Positions 7,837 through 60,249 of a stretch of 64,000 nucleotides of DNA are shown one piece after another; positions within the stretch are counted from its first letter, which is position 1; every line of letters begins with the position of its first letter. The stretch lies in assembly GCA_933228895.1 (NCBI GenBank), contig OW121851.1, positions 134,649,624 to 134,713,623 of the forward strand, given 5' to 3'. Source of the DNA: Platycnemis pennipes (taxonomy: Eukaryota; Arthropoda; Insecta; Odonata; Platycnemididae). Position numbers and translations under genes: made by a program. The notes under the pieces are model-generated. The model saw only the letters and a list, made by a program, of their open reading frames with translations, was not told the origin of the DNA and ran no database searches.

Positions 7837-7842
7837 CTTCAT
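7837..7842. repeat. Left 6-bp target site duplication CTTCAT
   Basis: Direct copy of 17717-17722. The uninterrupted site occurs once at 34834-34839 and once at 60113-60118. Confidence 0.93.
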
Positions 7843-7974
7843 AGTAGATATCAAAATAATCGAACTGGCGCAAGGTCATCCGCGAAGCTCTTTTCCCTTT
7901 CACTTTTGCGTACTCTAGCTGAGCTAGGCCGACGTCACACCCCTAGACACATGACAACATACCCCCCCCCCTCC
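7843..7974 (+). repeat. Left terminal inverted repeat of the Polinton-like element
   Basis: Matches the reverse complement of 17583-17716 with a single clear mismatch (GGC versus GGT near 7929). The inner end is a run of C whose length differs between the ends. Further in, near 8218-8265, a diverged copy of the same motif (GACCGAGGTCACACCC) suggests a subterminal repeat. Confidence 0.92.
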
Positions 7975-8396
7975 TATGAACTCAACTGCAACACGAGAAT
8001 TCCGCCCGGGAACATGAGCATGAGAGCACAGCCCGAGGATACCATACCACCCAACTGCAACGTGTTAAAAAAAAAGGTCAGACCCGGTGAAGGGAATTAT
8101 TCAGGTAATACGAGTCATATGATCTATAATAATAAAGACGATTTTATTTTTATTCTCAAATACCTCCCATCCACCCATCGTCACGCACTTACATAACTTT
8201 TCACTTCGCATAGGTAGCGTTAGACCGAGGTCACACCCCGGGACAATGACAGCATACCGTTCCAAGGTAACCCACGTTTGGATGACGTCCAAATCATTTC
8301 CGCATTCCTTCCCACAGCTGCAGTCGCTTACATAATTACGAAGCCAGATCGTTCCCCACGTAATAATTCCCCCTCCCTATCCATCTTCTCGGGCAA

Positions 8397-8404
8397 TATA
8401 AAAG
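8397..8404 (+). promoter_or_regulatory. TATA box before the left-end gene
   Basis: TATAAAAG lies about 140 bp before the ATG at 8545, leaving room for a transcript start near 8430 and a 5' leader of about 115 bases. It sits just inside the left inverted repeat, typical of a compact virus-like element. Confidence 0.5.
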
Positions 8405-8544
8405 CGCGTTTGATCAATGCGAGACATCGTTTTACCGCCAAGTAAGCCACCAAACAGTGCGCAGAATATATATTCAACTGAACGGATCCCGCTGCTGTGG
8501 AACTTCTCTCAGATCGCTCGTGGTGCTAAAGGTCGCTAGCGAGG

Positions 8545-8790
8545 ATGTCTCCCCTACTCTCCGCGAAAGCTGAGCTTGGTGGAAATCACCAACTAATCGT
8601 TCGCAAATTGAAGGATAATGTAAGCAACATATATGAAGTGCTCCTCCCATTACCGCTACTGGGCAACAACGAGAAGAACGATCTTAATCTCAGCCTAGAA
8701 TTCGAGGAAAAATACTTTACAGTGTTCAAACATATGAGCAAAACCATAAATATCGTGGGAAAAAGTGTAATATTCTCAGGGTTTGAATGA
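8545..8790 (+). CDS. Small left-end protein of the Polinton-like element
   Basis: 81 residues, ATG at 8545 in the context GAGGATG, ending in a double stop (TGA TAG). No family recognised. Residues about 48-80 follow the pattern F-x3-YF-x-VF-x-H, IVG, V-x-FSGF, which also opens the protein encoded at the opposite end of the element (17052-17525, minus). The two genes read inward from the two ends and so look like a duplicated pair. The left copy stops right after FSGF whereas the right copy continues for about 120 residues, so this one may be truncated. A TATA box lies upstream. Confidence 0.5.
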   Translation: MSPLLSAKAELGGNHQLIVRKLKDNVSNIYEVLLPLPLLGNNEKNDLNLSLEFEEKYFTVFKHMSKTINIVGKSVIFSGFE

Positions 8791-9011
8791 TAGCTAATTC
8801 CTTGACTATGTATCCACCATCAATTTTAGTGAATCCTTGAAATTCGATAACGGCACTCATGACGTAATCTCTCAAACTTGCGAGATTTTTTTCTTCTAAC
8901 GCCAGAGGTTCAAGAGATTACAAGAGTTTCTGACTTGCAGAATTTTACCTCGTGCCAGAGGTCAGAAACCCTTTTCAACACACACACTCATGTAATCAAA
9001 GTACAACCAAG
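8791..9011. other. Intergenic, Polinton-like element
   Basis: Short convergent intergenic stretch between the left-end gene and the 197-residue gene. It contains two similar GCCAGAGGT motifs (near 8901 and 8954). No gene seen. Confidence 0.5.
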
Positions 9012-9605
9012 TTATACCTTTTGATTACCAGACACATCATTCAACATGAGCACCACCTCAAATTTCAGTCTTTCCAGATCATATTCAGTGTTATCGCTAG
9101 ATAACCCGGTAGCGAGAAATTGTCTAACCTCATCACGGCTGTCCGAAAGTCTCCGGAGGAATAGATTTATCAGAGTGGAGAGTTTTAACAGGTTTTCCCA
9201 TTCATCAACATTAAGAGTAAATGAGCTCTTTGATAAAATGTTTTTAATGGACAAATGTCGCTTCCCAAAGTAATTTGCGTAGGACAAGCACTTCGAAGAG
9301 AGCTGATCTTTTAAACCAATATATAGGTAATTACTCACTGATTTTTCTAAATTTATAGCATTAGTCCATTCACTGTGTGAAACAATAACACTTTTCTTAT
9401 TTGCTTGATTAAATTGCACTACTGGTTCAAAGTCTCTGCCGGGATCGTAACCCACACAAACACTTTTCGATTTTACACCATTCAGATAATACACCGTTTG
9501 AAGCAGTAAATTATCGCTGTCACAAGATGATCGAGGAACGGGATGATGTCCAGACGGTCTCTTCCTTTTCACTGGCGGAGACTCCTTGTGCGATGACGAC
9601 AGCAT
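9012..9605 (-). CDS. 197-residue putative nuclear/DNA-associated protein
   Basis: The first ATG is at 9605; the frame is open a little further up to a GTG at 9632, but ATG is preferred. The amino end is serine/proline-rich with a basic KRKRP stretch (residues 13-17) that looks like a nuclear localisation signal. Two segments resemble each other loosely: VIVSHSEWTNAI (residues 74-84) and FTLNVDEWENLL (129-140). The second follows a beta-rich stretch and is reminiscent of the PC4/p15 single-strand DNA-binding coactivator fold, where a conserved tryptophan sits after a strand. That resemblance is by eye only. The tail is helical and charged. It lies between the left-end gene and the metalloproteinase and shares the latter's strand. 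Intact, no introns. Confidence 0.6.
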   Translation of the reverse strand: MLSSSHKESPPVKRKRPSGHHPVPRSSCDSDNLLLQTVYYLNGVKSKSVCVGYDPGRDFEPVVQFNQANKKSVIVSHSEWTNAINLEKSVSNYLYIGLKDQLSSKCLSYANYFGKRHLSIKNILSKSSFTLNVDEWENLLKLSTLINLFLRRLSDSRDEVRQFLATGLSSDNTEYDLERLKFEVVLMLNDVSGNQKV

Positions 9606-9788
9606 GACGACTGATGCGTGACGGGAACGCACCAGGCTAGTCTATTATCAACTCTCCCATGCATGGGGGGCACTAATGACGTACACCTTTACTAAGGAAG
9701 CGAAAGCGAACAACTCGATGAACTAATTATCGATAAATTTATCTAAAGACGACTCTTCATTTTTTTTAAATGTCGACTGAGTATTACT
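9606..9788. other. Short intergenic stretch
   Basis: Between the 197-residue gene and the metalloproteinase, both on the minus strand. It contains an AT-rich run near 9760. It may hold the 3' end of the metalloproteinase transcript and the promoter of the 197-residue gene; no clear TATA box. Confidence 0.4.
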
Positions 9789-11372
9789 TTAGTTGGAGAG
9801 AATATCTTCCATTCGTGAAACTAGGCTTTTTAAATCGTTTGCTATGATGGAAAAATCGGAAGGATATTTAGTGGGGCAAGGTATGTCGAATAACCTGAGA
9901 TTATTTTTACCTGCTCTGACTAAAGTGTTATTAAATTCACTGTATTCGTACACGGTTTTTTCACGGAAGAAATACAATAAGCCATTCGTGTATCTAAATG
10001 CTGAATGAATGCCTGAAGGTATCTGTGGAAATACTTTCTTATGTCGAACCTGATCTTTAGGTCTGAAACGACATTGATCCATTTCTATGATATATTCCTC
10101 ATCATAAAATATCAACGTACGACCCGAGTACGTGTTAACTATTGCTTGTACTCTAGCCCCTCGATGTAAACCGATATCGATATTATTTACAGGGTATCCT
10201 TCAAGTAATTCCATTACTGGATATTTCACCATGTAAATCATATTGTTAGCAAATATCGCGATTTCTCCACTCGGCCTATAATAAATAGCATCGAAACCCT
10301 TTAAATTTGTTTCAGGTAAGAATGGAAGCCAATCTGTAATGAGACGAGGACCTACAATGACTCTTTTTTCTGTTTCCATATCCACGAACCAAAACCATTT
10401 TGCGTGAAAAATATACATCAAACTATTGACGACGAGAAATTGATCAACACTCTCGATATCACACAACTCTGGCGGTTGAAGGGGTCCATCGTCCCCTCCT
10501 CCACCTCTTTCCGTATTTTCCCTATGTACATTACTTTTTTCCGACGGATTCTCTCTCTTCTCACCTTCAGGAGGTGCGCCGTAGAGGTATTGCGCCGCTC
10601 GTATATCATCCTCATGTAACGTAAGTTGGTAATTATGATAGTTATAGTATGGGAACATCACAGCGTTCTCATCGTTGGAATGTGAGATGCCAAGCGTGTG
10701 TCCTATCTCGTGGATTAGGACCGCCAGTAGACTAACTTGCCTATCGGGCAATTCGACTTGATGCTTCCCCAAATACCATTCTTCATCTTGATCGATGTGG
10801 ATTTCCAATGGTGAATCATGACCTGTCGGATAATCCGCATGGCCTAATGTACCTCCTGATCCATCCAAGGGAGCAGGGCAGAATTCTTTTCTATGGTAAT
10901 ATTTATGAATGTTCCGCGTATTCAAAATGATAATATCTGGGCTATGAGAATCTTGCTCAAACTTTAAATTCATCGCCTGACTCCATATTTCAAATGCTCT
11001 ATTTGCCACTTCTATGTAGGTTTTGTTCACCAGGGCGTAGTGCCATTTCACAACGCCTTTATCCCATTTATAATGAGACAACGAAAACCCGGAATCATCG
11101 ACAACGCCGCATCGGGGTCTATTAGTTAAATTTAGAGTCATCTCGTTTAATTCACCATCTTTGGTTATATTATAATATTCTTGAAAAATTTTAAGAGCTT
11201 CCTTAAAAGCGGTAGGATCAATGTTAGCTAATTCGTTCTCAATTACGTTCAAGTATCCATAATGACGTAGATATTCAGCGACGCAAAGCGTTTGATTGGT
11301 GCTGTTTTTATCCGAAATGACTATTTGCACCCCCAGCTCACTGAAGAGCAGAAATAAGACAAAAGCAATCAT
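9789..11372 (-). CDS. Matrix metalloproteinase (matrixin) with hemopexin domain, intronless
   Basis: 527 residues, intact. A hydrophobic signal peptide (about 1-20) implies secretion. A peptidoglycan-binding-like prodomain (about 28-80) is followed by the cysteine switch PRCGVVD with Cys88. The catalytic domain (about 100-265) has the zinc site HEIGHTLGISH (His221, Glu222, His225, His231) and a Met-turn at Met239. A hinge rich in E, G and P (266-302) leads to a hemopexin domain with bracketing cysteines at 304 and 499. This is the standard layout of an animal matrix metalloproteinase that degrades extracellular matrix. No RXKR furin site is visible and no membrane anchor. Host insect Mmp genes normally have introns; this one has none and lies inside a Polinton-like element, suggesting capture via RNA or a virus. 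Substrate and role are unknown; basement-membrane remodelling is a reasonable inference. Confidence 0.95.
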   Translation of the reverse strand: MIAFVLFLLFSELGVQIVISDKNSTNQTLCVAEYLRHYGYLNVIENELANIDPTAFKEALKIFQEYYNITKDGELNEMTLNLTNRPRCGVVDDSGFSLSHYKWDKGVVKWHYALVNKTYIEVANRAFEIWSQAMNLKFEQDSHSPDIIILNTRNIHKYYHRKEFCPAPLDGSGGTLGHADYPTGHDSPLEIHIDQDEEWYLGKHQVELPDRQVSLLAVLIHEIGHTLGISHSNDENAVMFPYYNYHNYQLTLHEDDIRAAQYLYGAPPEGEKRENPSEKSNVHRENTERGGGGDDGPLQPPELCDIESVDQFLVVNSLMYIFHAKWFWFVDMETEKRVIVGPRLITDWLPFLPETNLKGFDAIYYRPSGEIAIFANNMIYMVKYPVMELLEGYPVNNIDIGLHRGARVQAIVNTYSGRTLIFYDEEYIIEMDQCRFRPKDQVRHKKVFPQIPSGIHSAFRYTNGLLYFFREKTVYEYSEFNNTLVRAGKNNLRLFDIPCPTKYPSDFSIIANDLKSLVSRMEDILSN

Positions 11373-11450
11373 TCTATGAGAGTAGAATGATGCGTGTGTT
11401 CAATACCACGCAAAAGGAAATAATGAGCCCTTCCTTCAATACTGCTGTCG

Positions 11451-11458
11451 ATTTTATA
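11451..11458 (-). promoter_or_regulatory. TATA box of the metalloproteinase gene
   Basis: On the minus strand TATAAAAT lies about 80 bp before the ATG at 11372. With a start about 30 bp downstream this gives a leader of about 50 bases, consistent with a compact virus-like promoter. Confidence 0.55.
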
Positions 11459-11849
11459 GTTGTTTGCTCATTACGCAATCGTTTATCATTAAAAGAATCA
11501 TTTTATTAGCACGCTTTAAACCATTTCTCTTAATATTAAAATACCTCCACGCAAGTGTGTTAATCCAATATTCGAAAATAAAGCGTTCATCACCACTGAC
11601 CTACACCCGTAATCTTATCCCACCGTTCTGACATATGTTAGGGGTGAATTCTCACCGAAGCCATCTCAACGCTCAATGATCTATAATATTACGTCTAATA
11701 AACTAATATTACGTCTTTTTTATAAAAATGCAATGGTGGAAGATTGCTCGCCACTACGAAATGGAATTGGATCTCCGAGTTTGTTTGTCAAAAGAATTTG
11801 AATGCTCTCAATGTTATTTTTATTTTTTACGCTATCATTTTACGCAAAC
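11459..11849. other. Intergenic, AT-rich
   Basis: No gene seen. A short plus-strand frame starts at 11728 behind a TATAAAAATG string, but its second half is the complement of the broken hydrophobic-tail gene, so it is treated as a shadow. Confidence 0.45.
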
Positions 11850-12096
11850 TCATTTTCCGCCAATGAGGCTACCTATGACACCACTCAATATGGATCCGAG
11901 TAGCATTGGCAGAAATCCTCCTTTTGTATACGAGAATCCTTTTTTTTAATGCTTATGCCACGCAAAGCCAAGTCTCTCAAAGTATATCGATGCTTGAATA
12001 GTTTTCGCTTTAGCCTATTATTTATCTTATGTCTACGTTCAAGCGTATTCAAACAGCATTCAGAGATGGCTTTAATCAACTCCGCATCCGATTCTC
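11850..12096 (-). pseudogene. Broken basic protein with glycine-rich hydrophobic tail (Polinton-type small virion-like protein)
   Basis: From about 12096 down, the minus strand encodes a lysine/arginine-rich stretch (..LKRKLFKHRYTLRDLA..). The frame then fails at an eight-A run near 11960. A second frame, ending at a TGA at 11850-11852, encodes a glycine-initiated hydrophobic tail (GGFLPMLLGSIL..). A basic region followed by K-GGFLP-type hydrophobic tail is, as I recall, a recurring small open reading frame of Polintons and adintovirus-like elements, probably a minor virion or membrane-active protein; I could not confirm this. At least one and probably two small indels in A runs separate the parts, so the copy is inactive unless recoding occurs. 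No ATG is obvious at the amino end. Confidence 0.5.
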
Positions 12097-12657
12097 TTTA
12101 CTATAGCTGAACGCAACTTTGGTTTGGTAGATTTTAGCACATGGAGCAAATGATTATTGTTCTACAATCTTTTCATCATGCACGGACATGTAGATTACTG
12201 TGACCCTGTCTTCAGGAAAGATTTTAGTACGGAATCTAAACCTTTTGCCCGCGTCCTGTCCGAGGTCTAGGACCAAATAACCGAATGGTTCTTACTTCAC
12301 CTCTTGATATACCCTTTCCAATTACTGTAATTTTTCAATTGATATGATACAAACGGTAGCAATACCGCGTCTATTATCACTCACAGTTTAATCAACGTAA
12401 GCAATCAACTTACGAGAACATCAATACTTCAGAGACCAGATCTTAGCGTACATTATTACGCATACACACACGGAAATGCAACGCAGTTCACCTTGAACGG
12501 TGAACTCTTTCCTTTCATACCGTGCTCAAACGCGTTCTTTTGATGAATGTATAGTTAACATTCGAACTCAGTCGTTCTATATCTCACGAAGCAGCAGCGG
12601 TGAAACAAATGCCCTGCATTATCAAGTGTCAGCGTCAGGTGCCTGGAAGAGAGTGTC
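12097..12657. other. Unassigned stretch, Polinton-like element
   Basis: No convincing gene. A plus-strand frame of 83 codons at 12500-12751 has ordinary composition and overlaps the TATA element of the next gene, so it is not accepted. Confidence 0.4.
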
Positions 12658-12667
12658 TTATATAAAG
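12658..12667 (+). promoter_or_regulatory. TATA box before the small membrane-protein frame
   Basis: TATATAAAG near 12659 lies about 170 bp before the ATG at 12831 in the same direction. Weak evidence alone, stronger because of the frame downstream. Confidence 0.35.
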
Positions 12668-12830
12668 TCTCGGATTTGGTACAGCTTAACACTGGATGTT
12701 GGTGGGCATCTTGATCTATTCCTACAGAGAAGATACTCTCACAACCGATAGAACTATTGAATGGTAGTGAAAGTTGTCAGTGTAAAACGTGTATTTGGTG
12801 TAGGTGTGAGTGTGAAAATAACGTGAAATT

Positions 12831-13010
12831 ATGGATCACGCAATCGATGGTCTGGAAACTATTATATTTTTTATTTGTGATAATATACACTTTTTCGAAT
12901 GCATTATTGGTATTATATTTTTTATATGTCTAGGAATGGAAATACATAATAATATCAATGATGGTGTTAATAATAATCAAACTACATTCAATATTACGAA
13001 TGGGCTTTAA
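12831..13010 (+). CDS. Small putative membrane protein, 59 residues
   Basis: Starts with ATG at 12831 and ends with TAA at 13008-13010. The first half is hydrophobic, with two patches rich in isoleucine and phenylalanine (TIIFFIC and CIIGIIFFICLG) that could form one membrane segment. The carboxyl end is hydrophilic and asparagine-rich. No homologue recognised. Small single-span proteins are common in Polinton-like and adintovirus genomes. A TATA-like box lies upstream. The sequence is AT-rich, so a chance frame cannot be excluded. Confidence 0.35.
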   Translation: MDHAIDGLETIIFFICDNIHFFECIIGIIFFICLGMEIHNNINDGVNNNQTTFNITNGL

Positions 13011-13083
13011 ACCTTTTGAGAGATAAAAGGTTTGTGTACATTAAAATAAAAATTATACAGAGTCAATGCTTGTTATTTAATTC

Positions 13084-13298
13084 CTACCCAGAAGGCTCTA
13101 AGTCGGGATCATTACTCTCCTGAATAAACCTAATCCGTTCTTGTGACCTCTTTATGATTCGAGCCCCCGGGGCATTGTATTTACGCAACTGTTTAAAGCG
13201 GTTGACCTTGGCTTTTTGCTTTCCGCTCGCTCCTCTGCGTACGTGAGGTTATTCTTGCGGATATTTTGACGGGCGACTCGCTCGTTATATGATCTCAT
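13084..13298 (-). pseudogene. Basic protein fragment with one frameshift
   Basis: The ATG at 13298 opens a strongly charged frame (MRSYNERVARQN..). A second frame further down (..FKQLRKYNAPGARII..) continues in the same style to a TAG at 13084-13086. The whole is about 71 codons of basic/acidic, coding-looking sequence and the frame change lies around 13170-13200. Its richness in R, K, E and Q and the lack of hydrophobic segments suggest a nucleic-acid-associated or structural protein. No family recognised. It lies tail-to-tail with the small membrane-protein frame. Confidence 0.4.
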
Positions 13299-16200
13299 AT
13301 GCTACGGTACATATATGGTAGGTAGAGATCACTACCTGATACAGCTTTCAGAGTTTGATGGAAAGACTAAAAACGGTAGGTACTAAAAACATGGTGACAA
13401 TTTGGTAGAATCAATAGACTCGCCTATCCTAGTCGCGCGACATTACGGACTAGTTAACGAGCGTTTCGTTTCGGAGCGGTTCATCGAATATTAATAATGA
13501 TATGTATGATGGTTAATATGTGCAGCCACTTGAAGACTATATATCAGACTGTGTATTGGACTATGCATTCAGGAAGGAAGAAATTTACCGAGTTGATTAC
13601 AGTGAGGAAAGAGTTAATCATAGTACTACTGCGTTCTTTTTTAGCTTGACTCTTCCGCTGGTATGGATCCGAATACTCGTGAATTTAAGGTATATATCGA
13701 TAGTCAACTCTACTGTACCGGATACTCTATTATTCTGGAATTTTACTATATCATTATTTGAATTTCCCGCTTTTTTTCAGAGAAGCTGATTGGTTGATTT
13801 TTAGATCATCTCCACCAATCAGGAGAAGCTTTTTTACTTAGCGATAGCATTTCAAGACGATGCAGAAGACAACAAAAATTACCAGTTCCATACCAACTAA
13901 CGAAAAAGTAATCTCGAAAGAGTAAGAATGATGAGTTGAACACCTTGTTCAAGACGATTAAGGAGGAACCATCATTTTGGGCATGCCCGAAAACCTACCC
14001 TGATTTTAACATATATTATAGTTCATCGTTTTCCCTTTCGAATGGTGTAAAAATATTGCTATGTCATAGACCATTTAACCAACATATATGGATTTGAATG
14101 TGAAGGATTTTCACGTGGAAATGCATTGTCCTTATGATAGTATGATGACCCCGAAAAAATTTGTTAAAAACTAAGGAAACGTGCACGATATGTTGTGCAC
14201 ATAATATATTTTTCCAGCCCAGGTCATCGGATGTTTAACGTTAGTATTTAAAGTACATACTTCGTCGGAAGTCGGAAGAAGGAGACGGTAAGTTGCGATG
14301 GACATGGCAACATACTCTTGTTCAAATTCTGTTACTTATCATTTTTGTTATTATTATATAACTCAATGTAAAGACCTTAGTGCTGTTTGTGGAGTTTATT
14401 AAGTAAATAAAATATGAAATGGGGTATAGAAGTTAAGCAGACGACTTGAATTTAATCTTCATAATGCCTATGTATATCGAATTAATATCAGGCGGTACTC
14501 TTAGAAAATGCTGGCAACGTCTTTGTTAAAATTGATTAATTTGCGCATACTACGTTGGTAACTTTTTTAATGCTCCAAATTACTTTAAATCAGAATTTTC
14601 AAACCTATGAGTTCAGAATATTAGGAATTTATCAGCACCACTAATTTATCGATTTCATTTGCGGTAGACGTTTTTCTTAATGTGAAGGCATCTGTATACA
14701 GTAATGTATACCTATACATGTACGTACATATTCATGCAATCGCGTGTTTCGAACAGATTCAGATAAACATAAGAGTCCCGCAGTCTCTCCTAAAACTGGT
14801 GATTGATTGATAAGCGGGTGTTAAAAAATCGGGTCTCAGGCAGTAGCGAAAACTAAGATGGAAAGCATCTTAAGTATTTATTAAGGTACCTTACCATTGA
14901 CGATAATAGGAAGCAAACCTGTACATTGATCTCAATTATAAAATTAGAATGCATAACTCGACTTTATGGGTTCAGATAATTCACGTTTAATAAATGTTGT
15001 TCACAGAAATTCATTTTTTTATTGTAAAGCTTAATTTGACTACATTTTTTGTTTGTCCGTTTTCTGCATAAACATAACGATTTATTTATAGTTATAGCGA
15101 ACACAATGCATATTGGAAGTTGAAGTCCTTAAGTCTAGTCCGTAAGTTATTAAAACTTTGAACTTTTTTTTTCATAAACCAACCTTATGTCGAGTAAGGC
15201 TATCCATTCTAAGGAAATAGATTCAATATGATTGATTAAGAAAATGAAATCAATACGATTCCACCAAAAATGAGATGTCGAAAAAGTGATGATGAATTTG
15301 ATGTATGAATGATGTCACAAACAAATGATTGAAGTGAAAAATAATGCAATTGATCACGAAAATAAACTGTCAAGATACATTTTAAAACGTTTTACAACCA
15401 AAAATAATTATTTATTTTCCTTTGTTCATTAATAAATATTGTAATCAAATTTTGAGAGGAAATTCTCATCGATAACGGATATATAGCTAGAAAGATATCT
15501 GCCTACTCGGAGAATTACTGCTGCATGAATGATGTTTTTCTTTAAGTTTATTAATAGTCCCATTCATTTTATTACAGGTATTTCGTTTTATAACGCTGGT
15601 TCTCTTAGATGGCTTGACGAAGAAAATTGGTTGAATTATATTCTGAATAAGATTAATGTGATTTGCCAGGGTTGTTCTAGGATAGATCATTAAAGAAAAT
15701 ATCTATATGTATAATGAGTATAAAAGTCACTAGTAGTGACGACGTAAAAATCTATTTTAAATATATAATACACTGCTAACCACCTCTGAGATACGAGGAA
15801 AGTGGTGGCTCCGCACGGGGCATGTTCCACTGTCGAGTACAAAATTCTAGTTATTAAGTTAAAATAAGTATTTATCCGTTGGAATTCAAGCAGTATTATG
15901 TGCACCTACATTTATGCTCTCAGAATGCATGATGGACACTGAAATTACGTTACGCAAATATTCGTTGTTACACGCCCGAATTTTAGGGAAATGTCGAAAA
16001 ACAACTACATTTATGTTTGGCCTGGAGTGTCACGCATGTATGCAATATGAATTTAGAACGACAATACCCTCTCTTCATTAGTTTAACCCCTGAACTTTGG
16101 TTAGCACACCGTAATATTTCTTAATAATCTTTAGTCAACAATCCTTAGATTGGTTTCGCGCAGCTCTCATATCACATAACCCGTTATTACTCCTGTGTTA

Positions 16201-17051
16201 AGGAGTTTTACACGCACTCATAGCATATTCCGAAATTTTATGCATATCAATGCCAGTTGGATCTTTCATTCTCAATTCAGTCAGGAACCTAATAAATGCG
16301 CTCGAACTTAACTCTTCTGAAAAATCGTTAAAAGAATACGTATTTAAACTCATCTAATGATGTTGACATTTCAAAAGACTATAAAACCGGTCATAACCTA
16401 GAGACGCGAGAGATGTGACAATATCTTGAATATGTTTTAAGGAATGGAAGGTGCTCTTCATTCACCATATTTAAATCATAACGGGGGGGAGAACTTTATC
16501 CATATATTGAAAGTCTCCGCATTCGAAATGCATTTATTGAAACTCCACCTAAGGAGGAAACTTGATAAATTAGATTTTTCTTTTGTTTGATTACGTAGAT
16601 ACTATTTTTATGTATTTCTCTCGTTGGCTCATCTTTGATCGTACGCTAATTCATATGTTAAGACTCAATTGACCCAAGAGATGATGGGTCAGAAAATGGT
16701 AATCTGAACTCTGAGAGTAATCTTGAGCGGAGCAGTGGTTGTTGGTCAGAGGAGCACCAGCTCTCTCTATTATGGGGGAATAAGAAGCTTCCTCGGTGGT
16801 GCTAGATGTGACGTTAAAAATGTCGTATATTATACATTAACTGAGACCAACCAGTAAATGTGTGTTTATAGTGTCGAGACTGCTCAGCTGTCTTTCGTTC
16901 TCAATGTAAGTCCATTACGGAGGATGATATTAAGACGTTCGAGTTCGAGCAGCCCTTCCTCTTAATATTAAAGATAAGGTATTAAGAAATGATAACTAGG
17001 TGAATAGGTTTGATTTTTTTATTAGTTGCAAATCCATACAAAGATGTAGTT
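13299..17051. other. Gene-poor interior of the Polinton-like element
   Basis: About 3.75 kb without a supported gene, where an autonomous Polinton would carry large genes. Observations: a TATTTAAAG box near 14247 followed by a strong splice-donor-like GGTAAGTTG near 14290; a short acidic open stretch at about 16665-16805 (GSENGNLNSESNLE..); and AT-rich, stop-rich sequence elsewhere. Short frames at 13520, 15487 and 15690 are low-complexity. The region probably represents decayed or non-coding filler left after loss of core genes. Confidence 0.45.
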
Positions 17052-17525
17052 TTAAAATATAATCATTTCATCTTCGATGGCTAATACAAACTTTATCACT
17101 CGGAGTCGAGCTCCCTTGACAGCGTCAGTAGTACCATATTTCACAAGAGACTTTTTATGATCTGTATAACAAATCGGTTTACATCCATCCATAGCTAGTG
17201 AACCACCACCCTTTGATATCACTCTTGTATATTCTCCTGATGCTCCATCAACGTCGGTTCTCCTTGGTATATCACCTCCTTTGGGTAATGAGATTGGCTT
17301 GTTTTTCTCATATACGTCCAACCAGATGACCGTAGGGTGCTCTTCAGCCTTCCGCCGTTTCTCAGGGCAACTGATGTCTTCGTCCACGGTGATATTAAAT
17401 CGCTCAACAGCTCCGTTTCCATTTTGAAAGCCAGAAAATGTTACTTCTTGGCCGACGATTTCAAATTCTCGGTTTTGATGCCTGAAGACACAGTAATATG
17501 CCCTTTGAAAGTCTATAGTAAGCAT
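17052..17525 (-). CDS. Right-end protein of the Polinton-like element
   Basis: 157 residues from the ATG at 17525 to TAA at 17052. Residues 1-33 follow the same pattern as the carboxyl third of the left-end protein (F-x3-YY-x-VF-x-H, IVG, V-x-FSGF), so the two are paralogues placed at opposite ends and both read inward. The frame is open upstream of the ATG almost to the inverted repeat, so the amino part equivalent to the left protein may have been lost or is read from another start. The rest is hydrophilic, with a cysteine-containing segment (GCKPICYTD). No family recognised. The intact length suggests it is or was recently functional. Confidence 0.55.
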   Translation of the reverse strand: MLTIDFQRAYYCVFRHQNREFEIVGQEVTFSGFQNGNGAVERFNITVDEDISCPEKRRKAEEHPTVIWLDVYEKNKPISLPKGGDIPRRTDVDGASGEYTRVISKGGGSLAMDGCKPICYTDHKKSLVKYGTTDAVKGARLRVIKFVLAIEDEMIIF

Positions 17526-17582
17526 AAAATCTGTGTTCGCAACCTTTAGACGATCTTTGGGGATATAAATGGGGGATGGGAG

Positions 17583-17716
17583 GGGGAGGGGGGGGGGTAT
17601 GTTGTCATGTGTCTAGGGGTGTGACGTCGACCTAGCTCAGCTAGAGTACGCAAAAGTGAAAGGGAAAAGAGCTTCGCGGATGACCTTGCGCCAGTTCGAT
17701 TATTTTGATATCTACT
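17583..17716 (-). repeat. Right terminal inverted repeat of the Polinton-like element
   Basis: Inverted partner of 7843-7974, ending in CT. It contains the matching G homopolymer at 17588-17598. The coding frame of the adjacent right-end gene runs almost up to this repeat. Confidence 0.92.
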
Positions 17717-17722
17717 CTTCAT
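17717..17722. repeat. Right 6-bp target site duplication CTTCAT
   Basis: Direct copy of 7837-7842. The following sequence, TTCCTGTG, continues exactly as in the empty sites of units B and C. Confidence 0.93.
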
Positions 17723-26037: not shown

Positions 26038-26764
26038 CTATGAGACGGAGAAGGGTGGGGAGGAGGGAGGGGGTTGGCCGAGTGTGGGGACGAGGGAATC
26101 AGGAGGGTTGTTTGGAGGGGAGGATGGGTGTGGGGAGGGAGAAGTGTTTAAGGTGATGAGTAATAATGGGGATGGGTTTGGGAAGGTTATGTCATTGAGA
26201 AGGTCTTTTCTATTGAGGCTGATCTCCCGAATCTCCAAGGCATCCATCTTCCTTCCCTTTCCAGTAAAATGCAGTAATTCAGGCTGAAAACTGCTTCGGT
26301 GCCCCGTCTCCAAGAGGTGTCGGGCGAAGGCTGACGAGTCATCTTTGTTCCTCCAGCATGCCTTATGTTCTTTCACTCTGCATTTGAAGTTACGTCCCGT
26401 TTGGCCAATGTAATGGCATTCACAATTTTCACATTTTAACTTGTAAATACCTGATTTACAATTAGGGTCTAAAACGTCTTTTGCATTGTTAAACAAGTTG
26501 CCTAGGGTATTGTTATTATAAAAGCATACTTTAAAATTATTCCTCGGGTTTTCGTTTTGCTACACTATAAGACAAGGGGCCGATGAAGGGTAATTTACAC
26601 CATTTGGTTGGTGTTTTTGGCTCAGCGGGGAGCAAGGAACTTGAATGAGAGTAGTTAAAACTTCTAAGTTTCCTATTTAAAATCCGAGTAATTATGGATT
26701 GCTCATATCCGTTGTTGTGGGCAATTTGTCGTATAATGTTTAGTTCCTGTGCAAACTCCGTTTC
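26038..26764 (-). pseudogene. GIY-YIG endonuclease part of the Penelope-like element, inverted arm
   Basis: The minus-strand frame at 26038-26496 encodes the GIY-YIG domain (SGIYKLKCE, HYIGQTGRNFKC, VKEHK). The frame is broken from the preceding linker by a small deletion near 26540. A proline/serine-rich tail follows. This arm is continuous with the true 3' end of the element. Confidence 0.75.
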
Positions 26765-27368
26765 CCGTAGGGGGATGTTAATAAGGGGAGCAAGGAACTT
26801 AATCTCTCCGTTAATACGTGATCCGACCCCTGTGTACCAGAGACAAATGAAAAAAGTGCTCTACAGTTGTGGCTTCCTGTTGACAGAGAGAGAGAAGCTC
26901 GGACTCATCAATATGAATCCTTCACCACCGAGATTCTACGGCCTCCTTAAACTACACAAGGCTAATTACCCAGTGAGACCCGTCATATCACATGTCTCAT
27001 CTCCAACGCATAAGCTGGCTTATAAATTGAACTCTCTTTTCCGCGGCATGTCTTCATACACCCCAAAATTTGGCATCAAAAATTCAATTGAACTTTCGCG
27101 AACTCTGGAACCCATGATTTTACCGACTAATTCCAAACTAATTTCATTTGATGTTTCAAACCTGTTCACATGTGTCCCGGTTAACGAGGCCCTCAAAGCA
27201 GCGGAAAATTTTTTAGATACCTCGGAAGCCGCGACCGAACTTTTAAGGCTCATGCAACTCTGCACCAGTCAAAACTACTTCTCATTTGATCACAAAATAT
27301 ACGGTGTGAACGAAGGACTGGCCATGGGTTGCCCTCTTTCGCCTCTTTTAGCCGATATATTCGGAGTT
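26765..27368 (+). pseudogene. Penelope-like reverse transcriptase fragment
   Basis: Within an open frame that runs 26694-27395, the reading shows FYGLLKLHK, RPVISHVSSP, SFDVSNLFT (first catalytic aspartate region) and GLAMGCPLSPLLADIF, the usual order of Penelope reverse-transcriptase motifs. The motif carrying the catalytic aspartate pair is absent because the frame jumps into the endonuclease arm at about 27368. The first 70 bp of the open frame are antisense to the other arm and are not native. Confidence 0.85.
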
Positions 27369-28079
27369 CGGAAACGGAGTTTGCACAGGAACTAAACATT
27401 ATACGACAAATTGCCCACAACAACGGATATGAGCAATCCATAATTACTCGGATTTTAAATAGGAAACTTAGAAGTTTTAACTACTCTCATTCAAGTTCCT
27501 TGCTCCCCGCTGAGCCAAAAACACCAACCAAATGGTGTAAATTACCCTTCATCGGCCCCTTGTCTTATAGTGTAGCAAAACGAATCCCGAGGAATAATAA
27601 TAAAGTATGCTTTTATAATAACAATACCCTAGGCAACTTGTTGAACAATGCAAAAGACGTTTTAGACCCTAATTGTAAATCAGGTATTTACAAGTTAAAA
27701 TGTGAAAATAGTGAATGCCATTACATTGGCCAAACGGGACGTAACTTCAAATGCAGAGTGAAAGAACATAAGGCATGCTGGAGGAACAAAGATGACTCGT
27801 CAGCCTTCGCCCGACACCTCTTGGAGACGGGGCACCGAAGCAGTTTTCAGCCTGAATTACTGCATTTTACTGGAAAGGGAAGGAAGATGGATGCCTTGGA
27901 GATTCGGGAGATCAGCCTCAATAGAAAAGACCTTCTCAATGACATAACCTTCCCAAACCCATCCCCATTATTACTCATCACCTTAAACACTTCTCCCTCC
28001 CCACACCCATCCTCCCCTCCAAACAACCCTCCTGATTCCCTCGTCCCCACACTCGGCCAACCCCCTCCCTCCTCCCCAC
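27369..28079 (+). pseudogene. GIY-YIG endonuclease part of the Penelope-like element, direct arm
   Basis: An open frame of 287 codons (27329-28192) contains a linker, the GIY-YIG domain (GIY at about 27685, YIG at about 27724, catalytic-type R in RNFKCRVKEH) and a serine/proline-rich tail. The element stops at 28079 and the frame runs on into host LINE 1 sequence. Few differences from the inverted arm, so the inversion is recent. Confidence 0.85.
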
Positions 28080-28668
28080 CGGGAGACGGGAGAAAAGAGA
28101 TGGCTACTGAAAATCTTAAAAAGATGACGGGACACTTTAAACTTTACCTTTCTTTATTATTTTTCTGGTTGCACGGAGAGATTTCCGTCTAATTTCGGAG
28201 AGATTTCCGTCACGGAGAGATTTCTAAACCGTGCCTGCACAACCTCTCCTTGCCGAATATATGCCGTAACTGTATTCATGTTCGATCGCTAGGCGGCGAA
28301 AATTTAAAATTTACCATTCGGATGCGATTTTACAATGTCTTAGGATCTGGATACGGATCCGAGGGAAATTGAAGATCGGCGTATCTTCGGATCCGGAAGA
28401 TCCGACCCGACCATCCCTATTACGTATGATATGAAGTCACCAAAGTAATTACGGATGATTTCAACCTATTCTCTGATGAGTTTTCTTTTTTTACCTCCGG
28501 GGGTTGGGAATAATCTGTGTTACTACTAACTCCACCAATGATAATGTCAATATGAAATAAACAATGGCAAGGACAAATTAATGTCTAACTCTTAGAAAAG
28601 TATTTCCTTACTTTGATATGCTTCCAGAGCAATGATTTTTACCTTAATTGATTATGTAATGAGCCTAA
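28080..28668. other. LINE 1 end and spacer, unit B
   Basis: 28088-28140 is the end of LINE 1 as in C 53292-53345. Near 28177-28232 the sequence GGAGAGATTTCCGTC is present in extra tandem copies compared with unit C. No gene. Confidence 0.6.
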
Positions 28669-34000: not shown

Positions 34001-34839
34001 AAGTGGAGAATGAGACACAAGGAATAATAAGGGGAAAGTGAAAACATGATTACAGAAAAATAATAAAAATGTGATACGCAATAATAAATTTATTTATATA
34101 ATAAAGCTAATGTCTCTTCTCTAAATGGTTCATTTATTATGATTTTTGTATGGTTATTTTTTGAATTCAATTGCTTCAAACATCAATACATCAATATCAT
34201 TGCAGAATCCTTAATATTATGTCAATTCGCTTTTTCGAATATTTTTTTCTTTTTGAGTGTGCCTAAAATTGTGCACCCCATTTTTCTCTTCAAGCTAATG
34301 GTTTCGACCCTCTTTTAGGGGTTGATGGTGTTGACGAATAAATAACATGCTTCAATTGGTGACCACAAGTTTACAAATGCATAAAAATATTAAGTGGTCG
34401 GCAGATTTCCGCGAAAAATATCACTGGAAGGTAGGCTGGAGTTGAAGATAGCAATCAATAAATCAGAAATAAATAAGTGTCAACGAGTTACACTAGTATT
34501 TCCTACATTATTTAAAGAAGGAAAAGAAGATAGTAAATACAAAGGGAATACTAGGTGCATCACATTTGAAGAGATAGATTGTTCCAAGGAAAGTTTTACG
34601 CACTCCATTTCGAATTCTGAACTACTCGAAAAATGTTTTCTTTTTCTTTGGAATGATGTCAATGACCTTGATCCAAAAACAGCCAAGTATCACTGACTAG
34701 AGTCCTGACGCGAGACCCTACAAACATGATCGAGCAGTTAGGAATATTTGTAATTTATTGAGAATTGGAAAAATAAATTATTTAAGCATTGATTTAAGCA
34801 ATTGCAAATTATGTTTAGTATTAATAGAATGCTCTTCAT
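31013..34839. other. Unassigned unit sequence, B
   Basis: Counterpart of 4016-7842. Contains an 8-bp duplication (AACTTGTAACTTGT near 31486), the 16-bp palindrome near 32744, the open frame at 33022, and the empty Polinton target CTTCAT at 34834-34839. No other gene supported. Confidence 0.55.
33022..33531 (+). CDS. Uncharacterised open frame, unit B
   Basis: Longest of the three copies (169 codons). It begins with a cysteine-containing stretch (RCRCTQD) absent from the unit A frame because of a one-base indel upstream. The tail is longer by about ten residues because of one fewer A near 33489. No family recognised and no promoter assigned. Confidence 0.18.
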   Translation: MHSSNHFRGLRCRCTQDYCLLEATNPQLVLHGPNSPAPSTAVVRSAKGPFYDTADPFTLSILWRGRFLVSKELHWSVQFHFCSGVNEWWIGSLEILSTTPSVDTFLTTSRFLTFSMFVYSIRSANSVYDLILSYMHRPGAPWCNIYKWFAHLFLSKNIEFYLHVLELLQ

Positions 34840-34982
34840 TTCCTGTGAAAAAATCAACAATTTTCAATTTTTAAAAAAGACATTAGTAATGGAGCATTGC
34901 AACATTAGAACTTATAATGATGTTATTCCCCATTTAAAAAGGAAAATTCGATAAGGTAAAAGTTGGTATTCAAATGAAGAAA

Positions 34983-58765: not shown

Positions 58766-60249
58766 ATTTTACATGCATGTGTTGGAGCTGTTACAATGAG
58801 TCAATATACTTAAGGACAATTTCCAGTTACACACAATACTGACTACATTACATCCACCTATCTAGTTATTACGTAGCATATTGAGAACTCTTAACGGGGA
58901 GGGAGAAATTTAACCATCTAGCTATCACTGATCTTATGACAATATCGACACCGGCAGCAAGTTGAAATTCGAATCGAGACTTGAGTATGTGACGTTATCG
59001 ACCTGGACAAAGACGCCACATGTTATCTCTGCGCATTATATTACTCCTCTCATTCCTAGTGATCGACAGAATAGAATACAGGTTAATGACTTTATCAGGG
59101 TGTTTTCACTAAATAATAAATCTCGTGCTTAAAGCGATTCCGCTCTCCATTGTCCCCTAGCCGATGAATGAACAATCTGCATGAAAGCGTATATTAGCAT
59201 AGCTCTAACGATAGTTACTATTTCGTTTATGATGGCCAAATCGAAAACAGTATAAATGCTAGCGGAAGAAGTGGAGAATGAGACACAAGGCAAAATAAGG
59301 GGATAGTGAAAACATGATTACAGAAAAATAATAAAAATGTGATACGCAATAAAAAATTTATTTATATAATAAAGCTAATGTCTCTTCTCAAAATGGTTCA
59401 TTTATTATGATTTATAAAAGGGTTATTTTTTTAATTCAATTGCTTCAAACATCAATACATCAATATCATTGCAGAATCCTTAATATTATGTCAATTCGCT
59501 TTTTCGAATATTTTTTTCTTTTTGAGTGTGCCTAAAATTGTGCATCCCATTTTTCTCTTCAAGCTAACGGTTTCGACCCTCTTTTAGGGGTTGATGGTGT
59601 TGACGAATAAGAAACATGCTTCAATTGGTGACCACAAGTTTACAAATGCATAAAAATATTAAGTGGTCGGCAGATTTCCGCGAAAAATATCCCTGGAAGG
59701 TAGGCTGTAGTTGAAGATAGCAATCAATAAATCATGAATAAATAAGTGTCAACGGGTTTTACTAGTATTTCCTACATTTTTTAAAGAAGGAAAAGAAGAT
59801 ATTAAATGCAAAGAGAATACTAGGTGCATCACATTTGAAGTGATAGATTGTTCCAAGGAAAGCTTTACGCACTCCATTTCGAATTCTGAACTACTCGAAA
59901 AATGTTTTCTTTTTCTTTGGAATGATGTCAATGACCTTGATCCAAAAACAGCCAAGTATCACTGACTAGAGTCCTGACGCGAGACCCTACAAACATGATC
60001 GAGCAGTTAGGAATATTTTTAATTTATTGAGAATTGGAAAAATTAATTATTTAAGCATTGATTTAAGCACTTCCAAATTATGTTTAGTATTAATAGAATG
60101 CTCTTCATTTCCTGTGAAAAAATCAACAATTTTCAATTTTTAAAAAAGACATTAGTAATGGAGCATTGCAACATTAGAACTTATAATGAAGTTATTCCCC
60201 ATTTAAAAAGGAAAATTCGATAAGGTAAAAGTCGGTATTCAAATAAAGA

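Follow-up and report, generated by a model that had tools for sequence, protein, structure and literature searches.

Adintoviruses encode a polymerase together with virion proteins. Virophages and other satellite viruses keep a gene set of their own while depending on a helper, as is also proposed, from its genes, for the element described here; virophages, unlike this element, retain capsid genes. Cyprinid fish Mavericks have been described with 6-bp duplications, AG-type ends and core genes under purifying selection, and Polintons are suspected to be viruses whose particles are so far unobserved (PMC8097293). Whereas selection in the cyprinid elements falls on core genes, the signal reported below is found in a family without intact ones. 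Tlr elements were once proposed to be non-autonomous Polinton derivatives (PMC4028283); they share with the present case the notion of a Polinton derivative without polB, but retain integrase, ATPase and capsid genes and have been placed as an ancient separate lineage. No description of a non-autonomous or satellite Polinton/Maverick was found in the literature searched, Repbase and closed papers lying outside its scope.

The locus considered here lies in a 64,000-nucleotide stretch of the Platycnemis pennipes genome, referred to throughout as the window. At 7843-17716 it holds what is probably (at a rough probability of 0.74) one shortened member of a non-autonomous Polinton family present in many copies, likely mobilised in trans, with a small gene set likely kept by purifying selection.

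Termini and insertion site

Self-comparison of the window delimits terminal inverted repeats (TIRs) at 7843-7974 (+) and 17585-17716 (-), 132 nt long at 99% identity with 5'-AG...CT-3' ends, flanked by an exact CTTCAT target-site duplication (TSD) read directly at 7837-7842 and 17717-17722. TIRs with 5'-AG ends and a 6-bp duplication are both Polinton/Maverick characters, the latter present in the window and in all five other copies read that bear the matrix metalloproteinase (MMP) gene. The inner part of the right repeat is gone through a deletion of ~593 bp (17570/17578), the terminal repeat of a relative, C7, measuring about 575 bp (99%). Empty sites matching the target occur in duplicate units B (34827-34852, +) and C (60096-60121, +) as exact 26-nt matches, of which 100 shuffles gave zero, inside flank duplicates 97.6-98.8% identical to the element's flanks; exact empty sites in two such duplicates indicate that the insertion postdates the duplication or stayed within one unit. 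The inverted repeats, the duplication and the two empty sites claimed in a preliminary description of the locus are thereby all upheld.

The window as a whole (1-64000) contains large duplicate units spaced by about 25 kb (97-99%) and strong local strand skews. Reverse-transcriptase-like and GIY-YIG-like frames at 26038-28192, including a 712-bp inverted pair (99%), presumably belong to a Penelope-like element, judging by their motifs.

A 12.2-kb family and its decayed copy

Further copies with the same inverted repeats, for which the preliminary description proposed a search, do exist in the genome (1.79 Gb, 88 contigs): 13 repeat pairs were found at the 40 places scored among 245 candidates, and 12 of these enclose the MMP gene, namely 11 longer relatives of 12.06-12.34 kb and the 9.87-kb window copy, while the thirteenth (C4) is without it. 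Exact 6-bp duplications, differing between copies, flank all six MMP-bearing copies with both ends read (window, C7, C8, C44, C3, C1). A ~10-kb fold-back element of the same repeat family, without MMP (L017/L018; G000:C4, about 5082340-5092260), has arms of 3.19 kb in 99.4% inverted identity and flanks that read as a duplication only if the AG boundary is moved by one base.

Compared with C7 (L013/L014), the window copy has three deletions: ~890 bp at 8786/8787, another ~890 bp at 11825/11836 and the ~593 bp near the right end. With them went the greater part of the 208- and 175-aa genes, the 174-aa gene except for a short piece, the integrase remnant and the beginning of the 228-aa gene; by this comparison, the copy is a deletion product of a ~12.2-kb non-autonomous Polinton family. 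The 208-, 175-, 174- and 228-aa frames are open in five of five 12.2-kb copies compared. In the window copy, the 208-aa terminal gene is truncated (8545-8790, +; an 86-aa frame with upstream codons), and 45 aa of the 175-aa gene remain (8783-8917, -), the remainder having gone in the first deletion. The 209-aa gene follows, with 197 codons from its ATG at 9012-9605 (-) in a frame open over 9012-9641, and then the MMP gene, 527 aa from its ATG (9789-11372, -).

Upstream of MMP, translated searches revealed a probable C-terminal remnant of polB (11526-11597, -; 24 aa, 54%), a 24-25-aa match to the polB tail obtained with three polB queries (E 0.004 in the larger search), and a C-terminal remnant of a penton-like (342/380-aa) protein (11726-11821, -; 31 aa, 87%). 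Beyond the second deletion lie the opening 12 codons of the 174-aa frame (11833-11868, -), a decayed 115-aa Polinton gene (11853-12194, -; 84% over 63 aa in one frame) and, again by translated search, the last 60 codons of the packaging ATPase gene with two in-frame stops (12157-12336, -; 82%). A long stretch in which no gene was recognised (12337-16950), matched in the five compared 12.2-kb copies, leads to the truncated 228-aa terminal gene (17055-17570, -; 172/228 aa, 97%), a paralogue of the 208-aa gene.

The preliminary description had the element devoid of core genes and several small genes intact. No intact core gene was indeed found, but decayed ATPase, penton-like, 115-aa and probably polB pieces are present; MMP and the 209-aa frame are intact, but the 208-, 175-, 174- and 228-aa genes are shortened or gone. 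For a protein-primed family B polymerase, the window copy yielded no intact gene, the polB-tail match being the only trace; the rve integrase gave zero matches in the translated search of the window copy, C7 retaining a frameshifted N-terminal remnant, and MCP and protease gave no match at E 1e-3 in that of the element. ATPase, cysteine protease and jelly-roll capsid proteins are not intact in the element, where ATPase and penton-like remnants alone were detected. The ATPase, penton-like and 115-aa pieces have 82-87% protein identity to gene-complete Polintons of the same genome, and such remnants of Polinton genes are a mark of a non-autonomous Polinton derivative.

Complete Polintons and shared ends

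Gene-complete Polintons are exemplified by L029/L030, read in separate pieces, with polB, ATPase, 115-aa, 174-aa, integrase (Pfam rve and Chromo), penton-like, 153-aa minor-capsid-like, MCP, cysteine-protease-like, 178-, 209-, 172- and 221-aa genes; its polB extends for 718 aa up to the stretch edge, where the whole-genome search finds a 1230-aa frame. L027 holds the block from ATPase through the 209-aa gene. Among 455 candidate polB matches in the genome, 83 were scored, 82 of them stop-free in the matched part and 75 in frames of at least 1,224 aa. Pfam gave no name to the polB or MCP of these Polintons: what we take to be polB is labelled by family-B motifs (D..NLYG, K...NSLYG, DTDG) and gene context, and the MCP and protease labels are likewise assumed from motifs and context. 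The ATPase of L043 lies narrowly above the Pox_A32 cut-off and that of L030 below it, and the named relatives of the MCP include proteins of Ladona fulva (53%), Hetaerina americana (50%) and Ischnura elegans (44%). Polintons L027-L038, read in pieces, encode polB, integrase, ATPase, protease-like protein and MCP, none of which the window family has intact; no DNA match to the window MMP was found in them.

A second lineage (L042/L043) has the order polB (1168 aa), 118 aa, MMP (572 aa), A32-like ATPase, 122 aa, 297 aa, integrase, penton-like, minor-capsid-like, MCP and protease-like; its element ends were searched for and not found.

Two polB-bearing elements on C8, compared by their ends plus polB and 209-aa matches, have termini in common with the window element, a further mark of a non-autonomous derivative. 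The first (C8:83098040-83113887; 15.85 kb; 141-bp TIRs, 98.6%; TSD TAGGCG) has TIRs homologous to those of the window from position 31 on; in the piece examined, its 175-aa gene is broken and a 208-aa match is absent. The second (C8:1972178-1988223; 16.05 kb; 1241-aa polB frame) also has the outer 30 nt in common with the window TIR, matching the repeat at 94.7% over 303 nt on the left and 88% over about 126 nt on the right; no matching TSD was found at the ends read, so it may be a recombinant. Polintons of this genome thus resemble the window element in AG/CT ends, homologous TIRs, 208-, 175-, 209- and 174-aa-type genes and, in one of the two elements with ends read, a 6-bp duplication, but differ in length (about 15.85-16.05 kb). 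The outer ends of the MMP copy at C1:37648k resemble those of the first C8 element, which means that ends are swapped between families. An inner repeat piece in a C6 element (L039:2342-2472), 96% identical to window TIR positions 171-303, is a sign of inter-family exchange.

The metalloproteinase and the 209-aa protein

Pfam bears out the metalloproteinase named in the preliminary description (Peptidase_M10, PF00413, E 2.6e-33; Hemopexin, PF00045, E 5.8e-6), and its secretion is predicted. The prodomain PF01471 is matched at E 3.2e-4, yet under its curated cut-off, and PDB matches to MMPs extend across prodomain and catalytic domain. With a matrixin catalytic domain, a prodomain-type segment and a hemopexin repeat, the protein has the make-up of a matrix metalloproteinase (M10A), and we take a signal-like start, the cysteine-switch-like PRCGVVD and the zinc site HEIGHTLGISH to be its motifs. 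The genome holds 42 copies at least 97% identical to it and covering at least 498 of 536 residues, 39 of which are full length with no internal stop. The 572-aa MMP of the second lineage, 58% identical to that of the window, is accompanied by fragments and by six more copies at 98-99% identity that span 556 or more of the 572 residues, one of them interrupted by a stop. A third MMP type, with 49% identity and frames of 508 aa, is present in several copies (G000:C5:41861061, C6:91216656, C6:81722626).

The closest named proteins come from Ischnura elegans (59% over 60%) and from a Ladona dragonfly adintovirus, where the gene product is called 'collagenase' (39% over 97%). A 20-row tree, for which the program warns of long branches, joins the window MMP to the Ischnura row, represented by its first 325 residues only (100/96), and then to L042 (100/99); the window's set of 15 excludes five MMPs of vertebrates, echinoderms and molluscs (100/100), and entries of other insect genomes fall within it. 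Since a second lineage has it near polB and a dragonfly adintovirus carries it, the MMP is, by gene context and homology, a Polinton gene, and one named in a single dragonfly adintovirus record is now placed near polB in an integrated Polinton. 'Cargo', as it was first called, is too weak a label for a gene present in both and with a purifying-selection signal in the 12.2-kb family. A literature text search returned PMC4981718, the searched text of which contains both polinton and metalloprotein terms.

The 209-aa protein is predicted to be PUR/PC4-like and to bind single-stranded DNA, its model matching the 'MOSUB' protein of a Bos-associated insect adintovirus (Foldseek E 3.1e-6). In the literature searched, Repbase and closed papers again outside its scope, neither MOSUB with adintovirus nor PC4 with Polinton was found. 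MMP and the 209-aa model thus both have homologues in named adintoviruses, while the polymerase and virion genes of Adintoviridae were not found intact in the window element.

Tests for selection on the retained genes

The non-coding stretch 12400-16900 of the same copies served as a neutral yardstick, with p values that treat sites as independent and copies that are those at hand and no random draw. Across six copies (window plus five), MMP has 9/326 synonymous (0.028) and 14/1255 nonsynonymous (0.011) changes, against 126/4425 (0.028) in non-coding DNA, so that silent change equals the yardstick (p=1) and replacement change is lower (p=1.3e-4). The omega-like ratio of replacement to silent change is 0.40 in six copies (p=0.032), 0.35 in five (p=0.049) and 0.48 in 13 (23 replacement versus 18 silent changes, 72.5% expected; p=0.017), although the pair window/C3_25M, with 3 silent against 11 replacement changes and a ratio of 0.95, runs counter to constraint. 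The MMP signal is modest, its low p holding against non-coding DNA. The 228-aa (g228; ratio 0.05, p=6e-4), 208-aa (g208; 0.19, p=0.009) and 209-aa genes (g209; 0.21, p=4e-4, four copies) look constrained, g175 gives 0.32 (p=0.086, four copies), and g174 looks neutral (1.19, p=0.71), which indicates that an open frame by itself is no proof of selection. For these ratios, pooling without g174 was a choice made afterwards. Set against non-coding DNA, MMP (p=2.6e-4), g228 (p=4e-4) and g208 (p=0.04) show a deficit of replacement changes, and g175 (p=0.17), g174 (p=0.68) and g209 (p=0.56) do not. Silent change in g209 is unusually high (12/129), and the gene may have recombined with other elements, which may account for part of its signal.

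In a rival explanation, the family would be a passive non-autonomous transposon that arose by deletion and is mobilised by complete Polintons, MMP merely hitch-hiking and its selection signal inherited by recombination from an unseen complete MMP-bearing relative. The survival of core genes as remnants, the neutrality of g174 despite its being open in all five copies, and the g209 silent divergence and outer-end exchange, which suggest recombination, would all fit; however, the depletion of replacement changes in MMP, g208 and g228 would not, and the five full copies compared share their remnant junctions with the window copy, which speaks for a single non-autonomous ancestor, making this explanation unlikely. 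Constraint on a gene predicted to be secreted could also reflect a host-domesticated MMP family, amplified within a dead Polinton and selected for a host function, and insect-genome entries, which may or may not be host genes, stand on its side of the tree; but the dispersed insertions with differing duplications at six of six copies, the apparent constraint on g208 and g228, and the grouping with the MMP of another Polinton lineage make this very improbable. That the element is instead complete and of a new lineage with unrecognisable replication genes, as the preliminary description also considered, is hardly credible: its 12.2-kb copies do have six genes with open frames, and no known polymerase was found intact in them, but the remnants are too close to the genome's gene-complete Polintons, and in C7 the 4.7 kb separating the ATPase remnant from the 228-aa gene contain no stop-to-stop frame longer than 93 aa.

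Propagation and origin

The satellite-like Polinton offered as the other alternative in that description is supported by the gene remnants, the common terminal repeats and the polB-bearing relatives in the same genome, from which we infer dependence. Mobilisation in trans by complete Polintons is likely, judged by gene content, and suggests a satellite that exploits a mobile virus resident in an animal's genome. For a shortened copy of a non-autonomous family, the helper's protein-primed polymerase and rve integrase would act on the common repeats, replicating and integrating the satellite in trans, and its DNA would be packaged in helper capsids. The 209-aa protein would bind single-stranded DNA at the element ends, where the terminal proteins may also act, and the secreted MMP could loosen the extracellular matrix, a role suggested for other viral metalloproteinases, helping a helper-plus-satellite infection to spread between tissues or hosts.

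A bolder reading is possible but tentative: a true Polinton/adintovirus satellite in an animal germline, lacking capsid and polymerase, with virion genes swapped for MMP, and with MMP, the PUR-like protein and two terminal proteins selected to exploit, and spread with, a complete Polinton that passes into and out of cells as a virus. A dependent family that keeps a selected secreted protease without polymerase, integrase or capsid genes would speak for the reality of helper infection, and the proposed helper/satellite pair, both members being in one genome, is testable.

Gene order suggests how the family may have arisen. Between the penton-like and 209-aa genes, the first lineage has minor-capsid-like, MCP, protease-like and 178-aa genes, and the 12.2-kb family the polB tail and MMP; as polB and MMP are near neighbours in the second lineage, a polB-tail/MMP segment of an MMP-bearing Polinton was probably swapped for the capsid-protease block of a relative.

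Other arrangements among the genome's Polintons include two halves placed head to head (L031/L032; G000:C1:8811000-8829900), forming a palindrome around the penton-like gene in which 796 of 796 compared bases are identical and 209-aa genes lie at 8820125 and 8829257 on opposite strands. Three same-orientation copies ~23.9 kb apart (G000:C6:7053651, 7077536, 7101436) have 209-aa genes equal in score and a polB match in each, and in a polB-bearing element a dUTPase (Pfam E 5.9e-35) is present along with a frame of 359 aa past polB (L041:1551-3608).
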